Shown here in pieces: positions 37,558 to 44,063 of a stretch of 64,000 nucleotides of DNA. Origin of the DNA: Pseudoalteromonas sp. MM1 (GTDB taxonomy: Bacteria; Pseudomonadota; Gammaproteobacteria; Enterobacterales; Alteromonadaceae); assembly GCF_030296835.1 (NCBI RefSeq), contig NZ_AP027922.1, forward strand, positions 1,612,001 to 1,676,000. The letters run 5' to 3'. The notes beneath the pieces are model-generated. The model was not told the origin of the DNA, made no database searches, and worked only from the letters and a program-made list of their open reading frames with translations. Within the stretch, counting starts at the first letter, position 1. The number at the start of each line of letters is the position of its first letter. The translations under genes were made by a program, and so were the position numbers.

Positions 37558-39396
37558 ATGTTAAGTGTAAAAAAAGATCAAAAGTCATTTATGGCTAAAT
37601 TTAAATTAAGCTATATAGCCATGCTTATTGTGCTGATTTTATTAGCTATTAGCGCATTACCCAACTTATACCCTAATAAATCGTGGTTGCATGTAAGCAA
37701 CGCGCCTCATAGCGAAACCCAAGCCGTGCTAAGTACTAACACATTAGTTACTTTTTTAAATAACCAAGGCTTTAATGTTGAACAAGGGCTTGATAAGCAA
37801 GCAACTATAAATATTTTATTAAACGAGCCAACTAAAAGCGCTCAAGCGCAAGCGGCTATAAAGGCGCAGTATCCAAACACACAAGTTAAAATTGTAGAAC
37901 ATGCAACAAGCCCACTTTGGCTGCAAGAATTTGGTTTATCACCAATAAAATTGGGCCTTGATTTAAATGGCGGCGTGTTATTTGTACTCGACGTAGATTT
38001 AGACAAAGCCGTTGATGAGCAATTAGTGAGTGCATATCAACAAGCTAAATCAATCATCGTAAAGCAAAAAGCGCATGGCCTTAAAGCGCTGAAAACGGAT
38101 CATGGTTTTGAAATTAGCGCACTACCAAATGCGGTGCAAAAACTTAACCCAGTGATTGATGAGCTACAAAGTCGCTTTGCTAATTTAGCGGTTACAACAA
38201 CCAATAATGGGGACGTTAAAAATGCACTATTTAGTTATTCAGAGCAAGGACGCAGCAGCTTTGATAAAGAAGTAATGAGCCAAACACTCACCACGCTTCG
38301 CTCACGCATTGAAGAATTAGGTATTACCGAAGCCGTAACACAGCGCCAAGGTAAGCAGCGTATACGTATTGAGCTACCAGGCGTGCAAGACCCAACCGAG
38401 GCAAAGCGCATTATAGGCGCGACTGCTTCACTTGGGTTTTACCAGTTAAAAGAAGTAGGTGGCCAAACATTTAATATGCAGTCTGGTGGGACCATTAAAC
38501 TTGATCCTGTGCCTATTTTTACCGGTGATCACATTAATAATGCCAACATAGGGCGCGACGACTGGGGTAAACCCCTAGTACAACTGAGCCTAGATGGGCA
38601 AGGCGGCGATGCTATGTCGGCATTTTCAAAAGCGAATATTGGTAAGCCTATGGCCACGGTTTACTCTGAGTACTCTCAAAATGCAAACGGTGAAACCGTT
38701 AAAAAAAGCGAAGTTATAAACGTGGCTAATATTGCACAGCATTTAAGCTCACGTTTTAGCATTACCAATATGAAAAGCCAACAAGCAGCGGCAGATTTAG
38801 CCCTGTTATTACGCGCAGGCTCACTAACCGCGCCTGTAACTATAGTGCATGAGCAAACAATAGGGCCAAGCCTTGGCAGCGAAAATATTAGTAATGGTTT
38901 AGCCGCATTAATGTTGGGCATGGGGATTACACTTGCCTTTATGGCGCTGTGGTATCGACGTTTAGGGCTTATTGCAAACGTAGCGCTGTTATTAAATTTA
39001 ACATCGCTTGTTGGCCTCATGTCGTTATTACCAGGAGTTGTATTAACCCTGCCGGGTATTGCTGGGCTTGTGCTTACTATTGGTATGGCGGTAGATACCA
39101 ACGTTATTATATTTGAACGAATTAAAGAAGAGCGCAGAAAAGGGCGCTCTGCATATCAGGCGATTCAAGAAGGTTACAAACAGGCGGCCAATACAATATT
39201 TGATGCCAATATAACCACTATGATCACCGCGCTTATTTTATACGGCATAGGTTACGGCCCAGTTAAAGGCTTTGCCATCACATTGGCACTTGGTTTAATA
39301 ACCTCTGTATTTACTGGCGTGTACGTATCAAAAATACTAAGCCAAACGTTATATTTAAAAACGGCTAAAAAAGCAGGAGTAAATGCACATGCTTAA
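37558..39396 (+). CDS. secD: SecD, Sec translocase accessory subunit (second-type copy)
   Basis: A 612-residue RND-type membrane protein that helps pull exported proteins across the inner membrane using the proton gradient. A first membrane helix (about 18-37) is followed by the periplasmic P1 region (LGLDLNGGVLFVLDVDL, with conserved D1/D3 features) and a C-terminal block of five membrane helices that includes GIAGLVLTIGMAVDTNVIIFERIKEE. AAGGA precedes the ATG. It overlaps secF by 14 bases. There is no yajC, tgt or queA upstream, as there would be for the main secD; this suggests an extra secDF pair in the genome, which cannot be confirmed from this window. Confidence 0.92.
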   Translation: MLSVKKDQKSFMAKFKLSYIAMLIVLILLAISALPNLYPNKSWLHVSNAPHSETQAVLSTNTLVTFLNNQGFNVEQGLDKQATINILLNEPTKSAQAQAAIKAQYPNTQVKIVEHATSPLWLQEFGLSPIKLGLDLNGGVLFVLDVDLDKAVDEQLVSAYQQAKSIIVKQKAHGLKALKTDHGFEISALPNAVQKLNPVIDELQSRFANLAVTTTNNGDVKNALFSYSEQGRSSFDKEVMSQTLTTLRSRIEELGITEAVTQRQGKQRIRIELPGVQDPTEAKRIIGATASLGFYQLKEVGGQTFNMQSGGTIKLDPVPIFTGDHINNANIGRDDWGKPLVQLSLDGQGGDAMSAFSKANIGKPMATVYSEYSQNANGETVKKSEVINVANIAQHLSSRFSITNMKSQQAAADLALLLRAGSLTAPVTIVHEQTIGPSLGSENISNGLAALMLGMGITLAFMALWYRRLGLIANVALLLNLTSLVGLMSLLPGVVLTLPGIAGLVLTIGMAVDTNVIIFERIKEERRKGRSAYQAIQEGYKQAANTIFDANITTMITALILYGIGYGPVKGFAITLALGLITSVFTGVYVSKILSQTLYLKTAKKAGVNAHA

Positions 39397-40321
39397 CACT
39401 TTTTTAAAAGGCGAGGCGGGCACGCGTCTGCGTTTTTCGGGCATGCTTTTGAGCGCCATACTTGTACTGCTATCGGTATTTACACTTAGTCAAAAAGGGC
39501 TTAATTTTGGACTCGATTTTACCGGTGGCTACCTAACGGAATTTACCACCAGCCAAGGTGTTGAGCTAAAAGAGCTTCAATCGTTTATTACTAAAAATCA
39601 CAATGGCGAGTTTGAGCTAACCGCGCAAGGCAATAGCCATTTTCAACTACGCGAAGCGCCTAGCGATTCAACAGCAAATAGTAATGATTGGCAAACTGCC
39701 ATTACTCAAAACGCAGATATGAACGCTGAGGTATTATCGTCAGCGTATATTGGCTCACAAGTGGGTGATGAACTGTTTGAGCAAGGTTGTTTAGCCCTGT
39801 TTTCAGCTATGATTGCAGTAATGCTTTATTTAGCGGTGCGGTTTGAATGGCGTTTAGCTGTTGGCTCAGTAGTTGCGCTAGTGCATGATTTATTACTGGT
39901 ACTGGGGCTATTTTCGCTATTTCAACTTGAGTTTAATTTAACCGTACTTGCCAGCTTACTCGCCATTATAGGTTATTCACTAAACGACTCAATAATAGTC
40001 GGTGATAGAGTACGCGAGCTTTTACGTGTTAAATCTAATAATGCACTTAGCCCCGCAAGTATTATAAATAGCGCGATTAAAAGCACGTTAACGCGTACAC
40101 TTATTACATCGGGCACCACACTTGCTACGGTTGCCAGCGTTTGGTTACTCGCAGGCGCGCCATTACAAGGCTTTGCCATTGCATTATTTACCGGCATTGT
40201 AGTAGGTACGTTTTCGTCTATTTGTATAGCGGCAACCTTGCCTGAGCTTTTAGGATTAAGCGCTGAAAACTACGAAGAAAAACTCGATGTAAAAACCCAA
40301 GCATTAATGGATATGCCATAA
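39383..40321 (+). CDS. secF: SecF, Sec translocase accessory subunit (second-type copy)
   Basis: A 312-residue partner of SecD with six membrane helices. It has the SecF signature GLNFGLDFTGGYLTEF (about 30-45), ASLLAIIGYSLNDSIIVGDRVRE in helix 4 and the STLTRTLITSGTTLATVAS region. The start ATG overlaps the secD end by 14 bases, so translation is coupled; a second Met two codons in is equally good. It forms the SecDF complex with the preceding product. The gene order secD-secF without other sec genes again points to an accessory copy. Confidence 0.93.
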   Translation: MHMLNTFLKGEAGTRLRFSGMLLSAILVLLSVFTLSQKGLNFGLDFTGGYLTEFTTSQGVELKELQSFITKNHNGEFELTAQGNSHFQLREAPSDSTANSNDWQTAITQNADMNAEVLSSAYIGSQVGDELFEQGCLALFSAMIAVMLYLAVRFEWRLAVGSVVALVHDLLLVLGLFSLFQLEFNLTVLASLLAIIGYSLNDSIIVGDRVRELLRVKSNNALSPASIINSAIKSTLTRTLITSGTTLATVASVWLLAGAPLQGFAIALFTGIVVGTFSSICIAATLPELLGLSAENYEEKLDVKTQALMDMP

Positions 40322-40435
40322 ATGCGAGTCTAAATGATTAAGTAAACATATCGGCGCTTAAAATAATGGTTTTAAGCGCCTTATAACGTTAAAATTAACC
40401 ACATAGTTTACAGCATTGGTTATTAGCGCTACCTC

Positions 40436-40912
40436 ATGAACAAGACCCACGTAATTGAACACCTTAAATTTGCACTTGAAGCACAATTAAACAGCGCAAA
40501 ACAAGCTGCCAAAGCCGCGCACGACGCCGCAACTCACGAAGAAAGCGTAGCAGAAACGCAATATGATACCCTAGGGCTCGAAGCCGCTTATTTAGCACAA
40601 GGCCAAGCCGAGCGTGTAAACGAATGCTACAAAAGCATTAAACAATTTGAAGCCATTTTTAAAGAGCCGACTCACAATAAAGTGATTATAAGCTCACTCG
40701 TTTGTTTAGAAGATGAAAACACCATACAAAAATGGTTTTATTTAGGCCCAGCCGCAGGTGGCTTAACGGTTGAAGTAAAAGGGCTAACTATTCAAGTTGT
40801 TACACCCGAAGCCCCGCTAGGCAAACAACTTTTAGGCAAGCAGCTTGACGATGAAGTAAGCCTAAGTATTGCAGGCAATAACCATGAATATGGAGTGGTA
40901 GAAATTTTATAA
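40436..40912 (+). CDS. GreA/GreB-like protein
   Basis: A 158-residue cytoplasmic protein with an N-terminal alpha-helical hairpin (about 1-75, many Ala, Glu and Gln) and a C-terminal FKBP-like domain (about 80-158). The end, VVTPEAPLGKQLLGKQLDDEVSL followed by a short strand, matches the GreA/GreB C-terminus that docks on RNA polymerase. The acidic tip residues of true Gre factors cannot be assigned with confidence, so it could be a Gre-like or Rnk-like modulator rather than a transcript-cleavage factor. It is transcribed away from secF with 114 bases between. The accessory block begins right after its stop. Confidence 0.75.
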   Translation: MNKTHVIEHLKFALEAQLNSAKQAAKAAHDAATHEESVAETQYDTLGLEAAYLAQGQAERVNECYKSIKQFEAIFKEPTHNKVIISSLVCLEDENTIQKWFYLGPAAGGLTVEVKGLTIQVVTPEAPLGKQLLGKQLDDEVSLSIAGNNHEYGVVEIL

Positions 40913-40960: not shown

Positions 40961-41074
40961 AGCTAATTTTTTTCACAACATTATCAACAGTCGTTTTGGT
41001 GTAAATCATTAGAACCATTTAATTACTTGTTTACATTAGAGTTGTTTGGTGGAATTATTGAGCGATGAAATATA

Positions 41075-41101
41075 CGCGGTTTGGGGGTGTTATAAACCGC
41101 G
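41075..41101. other. Hairpin upstream of the abortive-infection-like gene
   Basis: CGCGGTTT, 11-base loop, AAACCGCG: a perfect 8-bp stem 48 bases before the start of the membrane-protein gene. Function unknown. Confidence 0.45.
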
Positions 41102-41148
41102 AAAATGGTGTTTGATAAGTTGTTATGTACTTAGGGAGTATATTTAGA

Positions 41149-41637
41149 ATGTGGCTGATGAAAAATTGGAAGTCGCTAGCCTCTATGTTGATTGTTGTAG
41201 GTGTTTTAATGCTGGCAGCAATGATGTATTTCTTTTCATTTGGTGGTGAACTATCAAGTGAATCTGGGGATTGGGGGGCATTTGGTAGCTATTTAAGTGG
41301 TACAGCTGGGGTAGTTATTGCTCTTTTTGCAGTAATTTGGTTAATTTACTCAGTCAGTATTCAAAAAGAAGAGCTTTCACAACTCAAGAGTGAGCTTAAA
41401 AAATCAGGTGATGAGCAAGTTGTTCAAACGCGCATCAGCTCCCTTACGGCTTTAATCAATTCATACGGCACAGCAGCTTCAGTTAGTCAACAAAAACTCA
41501 ACGCGTGTAATGATGGTGACAATCATTTTTTACCAAATGAAACACCTGAGACCATCAAGCAAACCATGCAGAATGAGCTTAGCAATATGGCTAAATACAC
41601 TAAAGAGTTAGAAGTGATACTTCAAGATCGTACATAG
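41149..41637 (+). CDS. Membrane protein resembling putative phage abortive-infection (PutAbiC) proteins
   Basis: A 162-residue protein. ATG 41149 is preferred because AGGGAG lies 11 bases upstream; a 24-base longer form is possible. Two membrane helices (about 7-27 and 46-68) are joined by a short loop with DWGAFGSYLSGTAG, then comes a coiled coil (QKEELSQLKSELKKS) and a helical tail. The WGxFGxxxxG loop between two helices, followed by Q-rich coiled coil, is the layout of the PutAbiC family; the match is by eye and weak. An integron attC-like site begins at its stop codon, so it looks like a gene cassette. If the family call is right, it would act at the inner membrane in phage defence. Confidence 0.55.
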   Translation: MWLMKNWKSLASMLIVVGVLMLAAMMYFFSFGGELSSESGDWGAFGSYLSGTAGVVIALFAVIWLIYSVSIQKEELSQLKSELKKSGDEQVVQTRISSLTALINSYGTAASVSQQKLNACNDGDNHFLPNETPETIKQTMQNELSNMAKYTKELEVILQDRT

Positions 41638-41741
41638 CAAACGCTTTAAGTGGGACTATCAACTCTAGGCAGTTTTAGCGTGGTTAGGTGTTTGCAGTGA
41701 TAAAGCAAGTTAGTTACTAGCCCCTTAAGCTGGCGTTCTAC
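41632..41741. other. Integron attC-like recombination site (VCR-like)
   Basis: The 110 bases between the stop of the membrane-protein gene and the start of the DUF3800-like gene have the layout of a Vibrio cholerae repeat. The left end, AGCAAACGCTTTAAGTGGGA, continues with CTATCAAC. The right end has AGCCCCTTAAGCTGGCGTTC before TAC. In VCRs, as I recall them, the corresponding stretches are AACAAACGCCTCAAGAGGGA and AGCCCCTTAGGCGGGCGTTA. The two ends are imperfect inverted repeats of each other, as attC folding requires. The outer core triplets deviate from the consensus (GTTCTAC rather than GTTRRRY), so the site may be weak. No integrase gene is visible. Confidence 0.75.
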
Positions 41742-41754
41742 AACTAGGTGAATA

Positions 41755-42549
41755 ATGCGAACAATCGTAGCTTTTGATGATACAGGATCTCCCGGTGTTG
41801 ATATGCCTTCAAATTGGTTGAAAACCAATCGAAAGACTTATGTAGCAGTTATTTTGCTTTCTGAACAAATAGAGCAACTTACAAATAGTATAAATGCTGG
41901 GCTGAAATTAATAAAAGCCCAGTATGGAATCGATGAGTTTCATTTGACAGATATTATGAATGGTAAAGGCCAGTGGAGTGTAATGGAGCAAACTGATAGG
42001 TTTGGTACGTTTAAAGTCTTATGTGAAGTGTTTTCTGAGTATTATATACCGTGTGTTGCGCAAACTTGGAGTAAAGAGAGTTATGACTTTAATAATATAA
42101 ATGCATCTGCTCTACCTGACTTTGAAAATCTTGATAAATATAATTATGAACATGTAGCATTTTATTTAGCGTTAATTAAAAGTGTTAAATATTTATACAA
42201 GAAAAACCTATTGGACACTGCATATTTTTATTGCGATGAGGGTATTAGAAAGCCAGGTGTAAATTTATCTTTTAGTTTCTTAAAAAATAATTCAGTTAGT
42301 TTTGAAGAGTCAAAGAATAATATTTATCTACAAATCGCAGATTTCGCTGCATACTGTTTTAATAAATCACAAATGCTAGCAGTAAAAGAAAATAAGACTG
42401 AAAGTGACTGGGAAATATTAAAATGTTTCCAGAACTCGGGATTTTATTTTTTAGATTCTGTAGAAATAAATGTCCCTAAAGAGCAGCTTAACTCTGAGTT
42501 ATATGATTATGTTCAATGGCATAACCATGTATATGTGCATCGAAATTAA
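41755..42549 (+). CDS. DUF3800-like protein
   Basis: A 264-residue protein of low GC and with codon use unlike the flanking chromosomal genes. The N-terminus TIVAFDDTGSPG corresponds to the DUF3800 start (usually xxDESG). DEFHLTDI (about 62-69), YFYCDEG (about 160) and LQIADFAAYCF (about 193) supply the conserved acidic residues of an RNase H-like fold. The ILQIADFxAY element is the best-preserved part. Proteins of this family are common in mobile elements and defence loci, but their biochemical role is not established. It starts 14 bases after the attC-like site, which marks it as cassette-borne. Confidence 0.7.
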   Translation: MRTIVAFDDTGSPGVDMPSNWLKTNRKTYVAVILLSEQIEQLTNSINAGLKLIKAQYGIDEFHLTDIMNGKGQWSVMEQTDRFGTFKVLCEVFSEYYIPCVAQTWSKESYDFNNINASALPDFENLDKYNYEHVAFYLALIKSVKYLYKKNLLDTAYFYCDEGIRKPGVNLSFSFLKNNSVSFEESKNNIYLQIADFAAYCFNKSQMLAVKENKTESDWEILKCFQNSGFYFLDSVEINVPKEQLNSELYDYVQWHNHVYVHRN

Positions 42550-42637
42550 ATTGTATAACAAGATAATTGGACTCCCAACCTCTACACAGTAGTAGAAATT
42601 ATTTTATGAGTTCAATTATGAATAAGTCAAGATTTGA

Positions 42638-42784
42638 GAAAAATAAACAAGACACCCATCCTAAATTTTGCAGTTTACGCATAGGTTCGTCTGTTAAATT
42701 AAAGTGGGTGTCAAGTTTGGTTTTATTCTCAAGTTTGGTTTTATTCTCAAGTTTGGTTTTCGTTACGGAGTTAGGTTGCATCGA
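42638..42784. repeat. Duplicated intergenic unit, copy A
   Basis: The stretch from AATAAACAAGACACCC to GTTAGGTTGCATCGAT recurs at 42931-43043 with few changes. Copy A is longer because it contains an 18-bp tandem repeat (42711-42760). Both copies end in GGAGTTAGGTTGCATCGAT; GTTAGGT fits the integron core-site consensus GTTRRRY, though the rest does not resemble an attC site. Confidence 0.65.
42711..42760. repeat. 18-bp tandem repeat, 2.7 copies
   Basis: The unit TCAAGTTTGGTTTTATTC starts at 42711, 42729 and 42747; the third copy is cut after TCAAGTTTGGTTTT. The copies are identical. Copy B of the larger unit has only one. Confidence 0.85.
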
Positions 42785-42930: not shown

Positions 42931-43043
42931 GAAAAAAATAAACAGGCAACCATCCTAAATTTTACAGTTTACGCATAGGTTCGTCTGTTAAATTAAAGTG
43001 GGTGTCAAGTTTGGTTTTCGTTACGGAGTTAGGTTGCATCGAT
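42931..43043. repeat. Duplicated intergenic unit, copy B
   Basis: The second copy of the unit at 42638-42784, with one instead of 2.7 copies of the inner 18-bp repeat. It ends immediately before the start codon of the small gene at 43045, so that gene's ribosome site would lie in the repeat. Confidence 0.65.
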
Positions 43044-43559: not shown

Positions 43560-44063
43560 ATGCGATATCGTCGTAATTATGTTAAAGGTGGGACGTACTT
43601 TTTTACCGTTAATTTGCTCGATAGGAATAAATCGTTGTTGGTTGAGCATATCGATTTATTAAGAGAGTCTATCCGTATTGTTAAATTCCAAAGGCCATTT
43701 TATATAGATGCATGGGTTGTGCTACCCGATCACCTTCATGCGGTTTTAACCTTACCAGATGGTGATATGGATTATTCGAGTCGCTGGCGAGAAATTAAAA
43801 AGCGATTTTCAAAATCTCTCCCAAAAACAGAGTTTTTAACTCAAACACGAAAACGTAAAAATGAGCGCGGAATTTGGCAGCGCCGGTTTTGGGAGCACAT
43901 CATTAAAAATAATGATGATTATTGGCATCATATTAACTACGTTCACTTTAATCCGTTAAAGCACGGTTTAATTAGTCGAGTAGTTGATTGGCCTTATTCA
44001 AGTTTTCACAGAGCCGTAAAACAAGGTGTTTATACAAATAATTGGTGTGGCGAAAAAATATAA
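43560..44063 (+). CDS. REP-associated tyrosine transposase (RAYT, Y1/IS200-like)
   Basis: A 167-residue single-strand DNA transposase of the Y1 HUH group. The metal-binding pair is HLH (58-60, in LPDHLHAV) and the catalytic tyrosine is Tyr127 in INYVHFNPLKHG. The N-terminus MRYRRNYVKGGTYFFTV and the C-terminal WPYSSF are typical of the RAYT group, which is domesticated rather than self-mobile and acts on REP palindromes. REP elements lie on both sides (43452, 44071 and 44180), the usual REP-RAYT arrangement. The gene is intact and of usual length, so it may be active. Confidence 0.9.
   Translation: MRYRRNYVKGGTYFFTVNLLDRNKSLLVEHIDLLRESIRIVKFQRPFYIDAWVVLPDHLHAVLTLPDGDMDYSSRWREIKKRFSKSLPKTEFLTQTRKRKNERGIWQRRFWEHIIKNNDDYWHHINYVHFNPLKHGLISRVVDWPYSSFHRAVKQGVYTNNWCGEKI

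Follow-up and report, generated by a model that had tools for sequence, protein, structure and literature searches.

A probable integrase-less integron platform in Pseudoalteromonas sp. MM1 and related attI sites dispersed through the genus

Results

The window analysed here is a stretch of 64,000 nt from Pseudoalteromonas sp. MM1 (NZ_AP027922.1, positions 1,612,001-1,676,000), and the features described from the greA-like gene to cassette 2 lie on the forward strand. The left chromosomal neighbour is a greA-like gene (40436-40912, Pfam GreA_GreB), downstream of secD and secF (NCBIfam matches), and the platform directly follows this block of three genes (37558-40912). It begins with an attI region, termed type A (40966-41124), which was recognised by matches in the genus and by copies adjoining intI elsewhere, has a promoter-like Pc and has no adjoining intI. 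The predicted Pc, found by a motif scan, reads TTTACA - 17 - AATTAT (41030-41058). The attI ends in a crossover GTT (41122-41124), located by similarity breakpoints among relatives, with the cut expected between G and T. Gene cassette 1 (41123-41735) follows with an ORF for a membrane-like protein of 170 aa (41125-41637, ORF call) and a VCR-like attC (41632-41741). The R'' of this attC (41630-41638) has AGC for AAC, and its R' GTT lies at 41735-41737. Gene cassette 2, taken up to its R'' (41736-42559), carries an ORF of 264 aa for a DUF3800 protein (41755-42549; Pfam PF12686, 32.2 bits).

A cassette is expected to begin with bases that form the inverted complement of its R''. For cassette 1, the start GTTATGTAC (41122-41130) and the R'' GTACATAGC (41630-41638) are complementary in this way at 8 of 9 positions, and the same agreement is seen for cassette 2 between GTTCTACAA (41735-41743) and TTGTATAAC (42551-42559); the sampled per-position chance of such a match is 0.00026. 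The right half of a second attC gave no covariance-model match after cassette 2 in an unfiltered search of 8 kb. The cassette 1 protein had only weak matches below the cut-offs in PADLOC, Pfam and NCBIfam. The DUF3800 protein is present in 1 of 108 genomes of the genus and has 12 relatives at E <= 0.001, of which those with a named source come from Vibrio, Aeromonas and Cellvibrio. The tail beyond cassette 2 holds repeats, an ORF of 106 aa without a family match in Pfam or NCBIfam, and a REP-associated transposase gene. An 89-base repeat occurs there in two copies (42636-42724 and 42931-43018, 94% identical), and similar short stretches are found in other loci, e.g. L269 and L038. The transposase gene (43560-44063; NF047646, 194.9 bits) is of the REP-associated tyrosine type and lies near REP-like repeats that recur around the locus.

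A reading of the sequence alone had proposed VCR-like attC arms between the two ORFs (41125-41637 and 41755-42549). When 54 attC sites from other loci, excluding the candidate, were used to build a covariance model, it matched exactly 41632-41741 on the forward strand with 42.8 bits. The E-value was 2.1e-7 in a search of 218 kb and 7.9e-9 in an unfiltered one of 8 kb, these model E-values being rough. No other convincing attC was found in the window, where the next model match scored 13.7 bits. An initial strict attC scanner reported nothing in the window and six stretches elsewhere in the genome; it was superseded by a looser scanner and the covariance model. An Rfam scan of the window gave no family at the gathering score. 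Allowing one mismatch, the VCR left-arm pattern was detected in 9 of the 345 genomes searched within the order, including this one, with a reversed control of 0 throughout. Among the copies read through, those in L054, L057, L065 and L069 are full VCR-type attC sites and that in L055 is truncated. An attC of the same genus (L127:2472-2597) has ACATA[A/G]CAAACGCTTTAAG in common with the site in the window.

The core triplets are off consensus, as the sequence-only reading had noted: R' begins with the expected GTT and reads GTTCTAC, while R'' ends in AGC and not in AAC. The expected VCR-like folding was seen only in part, as its energy is weak. Both arms pair when the bottom strand is folded as DNA, yet its energy is no better than that of shuffled sequences (z +1.00, 173 of 200 shuffles as good; z +1.17 with flanks). 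Among seven true attC sites folded alongside, three were likewise weak (z -0.22, -0.39 and -0.82) and four strong (-2.17 to -4.17). The attC of cassette 1 is a real site, but because of the altered R'' and the folding result it now looks decayed.

A profile search found no integron integrase in the window, in agreement with the sequence-only reading, and accordingly no intI lies beside the attI. The only TIGR02249 match above the cut-off in the whole genome (C1:1763631-1764578, 466.6 bits, no stops) is located 110 kb from the attC of cassette 1 and heads an array of its own. Its product is 68.7% identical to the type A reference and is of another type, type B; the same whole-genome search gave no type A integrase. 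The suggestion that the window simply cuts off the integrase of this locus thus fails, since the sole intI is distant and belongs to another array and another type. Further attC sites, which had been anticipated elsewhere in the genome, were found: besides the one intI there are 25 attC matches, of which 22 with E <= 4.4e-6 all fall into six attI-headed arrays. This count is a lower bound, as 150 of 2424 first-look candidates were scored.

The array with intI has six attC sites and a type B attI, and the other five lack intI. Two of these have a type A attI and one attC each, namely the window array and that at C1:1858960 (attI at C1:1859 kb). Another two have a type C attI, with three attC sites at C1:1988902-1990806 (attI at C1:1990 kb) and one at C2:218564. 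The remaining array (C1:2158695-2167628) has ten attC sites and a type B attI at C1:2158 kb, which is 81.6% identical over 245 bases to the intI-adjacent attI; this array keeps sequence resembling an intI start. The two type C sites are 79.7% identical to each other and about 80% identical to intI-adjacent attI sites of other genomes. A partial type A site (L217) in this genome has no confident attC, and a weak attC match lies at C2:86441 (E 0.2). In the intI array, the first two cassettes look duplicated (L032, 9191-9307 and 9677-9793). The layout in this genome is thus that of one integrase gene alongside several attI platforms, which are distributed over both replicons. With at least six arrays and one intI found, several of these dispersed docking sites would likely have to share a single enzyme, or have likely been abandoned by it.

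The type A attI (40966-41124) has counterparts in 47 of the 108 genomes compared within the genus, with at most 7 candidates scored per genome. Its identification as attI is based on homology to an element located between intI and the first cassette in L018 and L022, and also in L016, L017, L019 and L020, and on the fact that cassettes begin at its GTT. Among the intI loci read, type A attI adjoins only IntI that are 89-100% identical to the L018 reference, and type C attI only IntI of 81-82% identity to it. Type B attI adjoins the integrase of the MM1 genome (69%), with a weak 73-base match beside a 63% IntI in L041. Six loci with other IntI had no attI match. The Pc motif agrees with the consensus at 9 of 12 bases, and three such motifs were found in the stretch compared with 1.4 in shuffles; the Pc motif is kept in 52 of 66 platforms and, judged by its sequence, would transcribe the first cassette. 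No match of the type A attI was found in a phage collection, and 10 plasmid records contained one.

The greA-like neighbour is 93-97% identical in seven other genomes, one of which, G063 (L119), is without the whole insert. In the other six (L116, L117, L118, L120, L121 and L122), the flank is common up to the end of attI and then diverges. When L117, L118, L120, L121, L122 and the window are compared in pairs, similarity ends +3 to +7 from the G of GTT in 14 of 15 cases and at +17 in one. In L116, which is not part of these 15 pairs, the GTT reads GCT and similarity ends slightly earlier. Perfect complements between cassette start and R'' were found in L117 (12 bases), L118 (13) and L122 (11). 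The attC model matched in L120 and L121 (E 2.6e-6, 4.2e-10 and 0.0012); it also matched in L117 and L122, by construction, since both sites were part of the model.

A core pattern of the attI, TATACGCNGTTTTGGNGNGTTATAANC, gave 138 matches with up to three mismatches in 45 of 108 genomes, some of which may be false at this tolerance, and a reversed control gave 0. At least two matches are present in 31 genomes, and ten in G030. Regions read around 56 and a further 17 of the 138 matches were combined with four regions obtained from a full-attI match only. The 76 platforms that reach a GTT carry 75 names, L251 standing for two platforms, after three platforms without GTT were dropped. Upstream of these, a full intI is present in four cases and a partial one in three; in the other 68 no intI lies within 5.5 kb, the available upstream sequence being shorter than 2 kb for six. 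Complements of at least 9 bases between start and R'' occur in 28 of 69 platform entries compared with 3.5% of 8953 control GTTs. The window itself, with an exact complement of only 6 bases, does not pass this exact test because one R'' base is changed. In 60 regions, 75 of 76 attC matches lie downstream of attI on the same strand, and 35 of the 60 regions have at least one. Some attC matches arise by construction, as the 54 model sequences include nine taken from these 60 regions, two taken from the greA locus (L117 and L122) and another two belonging to the intI array of the MM1 genome.

Among 54 orthologous pairs in ten groups, similarity is lost at -3 to +8 of the GTT in 39. The same holds for 32 of the 41 pairs in which neither member has an intI remnant of at least 30 aa. 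The other nine of these pairs end at -7 (two), +9, +12, +17, +18, +24, +347 and +1389; the +347 pair is L249/L251, which overlap at one site, and L236/L237 share their first cassette (to +1389), all being kept in the totals. Remnants of intI were recorded in L211, L214, L226 and L243 for the complement test and in L214, L243 and L278 for the breakpoint test, the lists differing in part due to different cut-offs. A LexA-box-like site is present in 18 of 66 platforms, and broken intI copies are common in the genus. Outside the genus, six of 39 stretches contained the exact attI core, and Colwellia accounts for three of the six. In Colwellia maritima, L300 and L322 both carry a pair of type A attI cores (spacing 4.6 and 3.0 kb), and L300 has four attC matches.

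Some platforms occur together with a cassette as 100% identical copies at different places (L199/L200, 1599 bases; L199/L232, 1263; L231/L247, 1028), and these are perhaps units moving as a whole. These copies have a left-border motif, CGGACACTGAAAA, which is present in 21 of 66 platforms with two substitutions allowed, mostly at about -218. Two long segments, 99% identical between arrays with and without intI in one genome (L197/L198 and L204/L207), were considered as exchanged cassettes, and this reading was rejected. Their products are a group II intron reverse transcriptase/maturase and a transposase of the IS110 family, so the segments are elements inserted at attC ends, which is no proof of cassette exchange. 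Insertions with ORFs of these two kinds occur at attC ends in several platforms. One short cassette is common to the arrays of two genomes (L197 +1 to +408, L236 +2534 to +2941, 94%).

Among plasmids, the type A attI is matched best in pRVS1-224 of Aliivibrio salmonicida. The matching site lies beside an annotated integron integrase and a dfrA1 cassette, and is 84.6% identical to the window attI over 156 aligned bases. The plasmid integrase is 99.4% identical to a chromosomal integrase of Pseudoalteromonas G021, and the block of SDR gene, intI and attI is 98.1% identical between the two over 2205 bases. PMC3108266 lists the pRVS1 integrase fifth among its five class references, and the integrase of pRVS1-224 was read as class 5 accordingly. 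The sequence identities point to Pseudoalteromonas or a close relative as the source of this class 5 integron.

Discussion

The locus is best explained as an integrase-less integron platform that was likely loaded by an integrase which is encoded elsewhere in the genome or has since been lost. The probability of this reading is estimated at about 0.7. The platform would consist, in order, of attI with the predicted Pc, cassette 1 with its attC, and the start of a second cassette. For loading, the folded bottom strand of an attC would be cut by IntI and joined to the attI at G/TT. The platform has lost, or never had, an integrase of its own, and service in trans would be expected to produce the turnover that is seen at the GTT of platforms without intI. 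Alternatively, this turnover could predate the loss of intI. Since no type A integrase was found in the genome, present-day service in trans is doubtful for this site. The present cassettes are probably largely fixed, because AGC replaces AAC in the R'', the second attC is present only in part, and the one integron integrase found in the genome is of another type (69%).

A wider form of the proposal would be a distributed integron, in which many intI-less platforms of attI and Pc on both replicons are loaded and reshuffled in trans by one integrase. This extension is put forward tentatively and falls somewhat short of even odds. If it were true, a cell would hold more than one cassette simultaneously in first position, where expression is strong.

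The strongest competing explanation is a plain relic, that is, a complete integron that gained its lineage-specific cassettes with intI in cis and lost intI several times, with nothing acting in trans. The intI pieces or LexA-box-like sites kept in some platforms (the latter in 18 of 66), the intI-start-like sequence in the type B orphan array of this genome and the frequency of broken intI copies in the genus all fit such a history. However, none of the six relatives has an intI between the greA-like gene and attI, so this explanation needs several separate losses, and the same pattern recurs in other intI-less groups. It is regarded as a serious though rather doubtful possibility.

Clearly less probable is the spread of platforms as units, in which attI, Pc and cassettes would be copied together by a mobile element or by repeat recombination, without integrase action at the new place. 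The identical platform and cassette copies at different places (1028 to 1599 bases, 100%) and the left-border motif in 21 of 66 platforms are what this process would leave behind, but they concern a second type A subfamily. The window platform has no border motif and occupies one conserved place in its group, and no consistent right border was found.

Insertion of the cassettes at a non-classical chromosomal site (attG), with only accidental similarity of the flank, is very improbable. Off-target insertion by integron integrases is documented (PMC10127599, and PMC12444791 where it cites work on attG), but an attG is neither attI nor attC, whereas the target here is a 159-base attI with a type-specific partner integrase elsewhere in the genus. 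Least credible is a chance attC-like inverted repeat. The unremarkable folding energy would agree with it, but the model E of about 2e-7, the exact position between two ORFs, the matching cassette start and the attI upstream speak against it.

In the usual description, an integron has one integrase, a single attI and a single array together in cis, and good expression is limited to the first cassettes of the array. Clusters of attC sites without an integron integrase are termed CALIN, and single ones SALIN. The sequence-only reading gave, as one of two options, a stranded CALIN-type fragment, of which the attC without an integrase holds but the fragment does not. The array starts at its own attI and Pc, which makes it an integron head without intI and not an attC fragment. 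A CALIN has at least two attC sites without intI, and the window has one model match. By count it has the single attC of a SALIN, followed by the left end of a second attC, but this name does not cover a site headed by attI. The likeness to CALINs and SALINs lies in attC-bearing cassettes without a nearby intI. In contrast to these, the array keeps an attI and a promoter-like Pc, and such heads are dispersed through the genus with cassette turnover at GTT. According to the cited reports, integrase-less arrays are common in Shewanella (PMC9229058), and in Xanthomonas CALINs also adjoin secF and secD (PMC12444791), a shared setting that is possibly due to chance.

A closer parallel is the Shewanella prophage M16-3, for which PMC9892861 describes a CALIN whose leading attI is of the type found in a complete integron of that element. 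It is likewise an integrase-less array headed by attI, but a single prophage case, whereas the MM1 genome alone has six arrays and the genus 138 pattern matches. The class 5 integron of pRVS1-224 has the same attI type as the window, but with intI in cis. Within the genus, P. tunicata is reported to encode four IntI4-type recombinases (PMC2536512), and integrons have been annotated on Pseudoalteromonas chromids (PMC7858055). In the literature searched, which covered a minority of the subscription papers, no account was found of intI-less attI sites dispersed through a genus.

The attC arms of the window are of the same sequence type as the VCR of V. cholerae. The chromosomal integron of V. cholerae has one long array beside one intI, whereas several short arrays, each with an attI, are present here. 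Integrase-less arrays as such are already known; here there are instead six attI-headed arrays, one integrase gene and an attI type that is dispersed through the genus. If these arrays were served in trans, each cell would have several first positions, and arrays without an integrase would include a class that works as platforms and is not debris.
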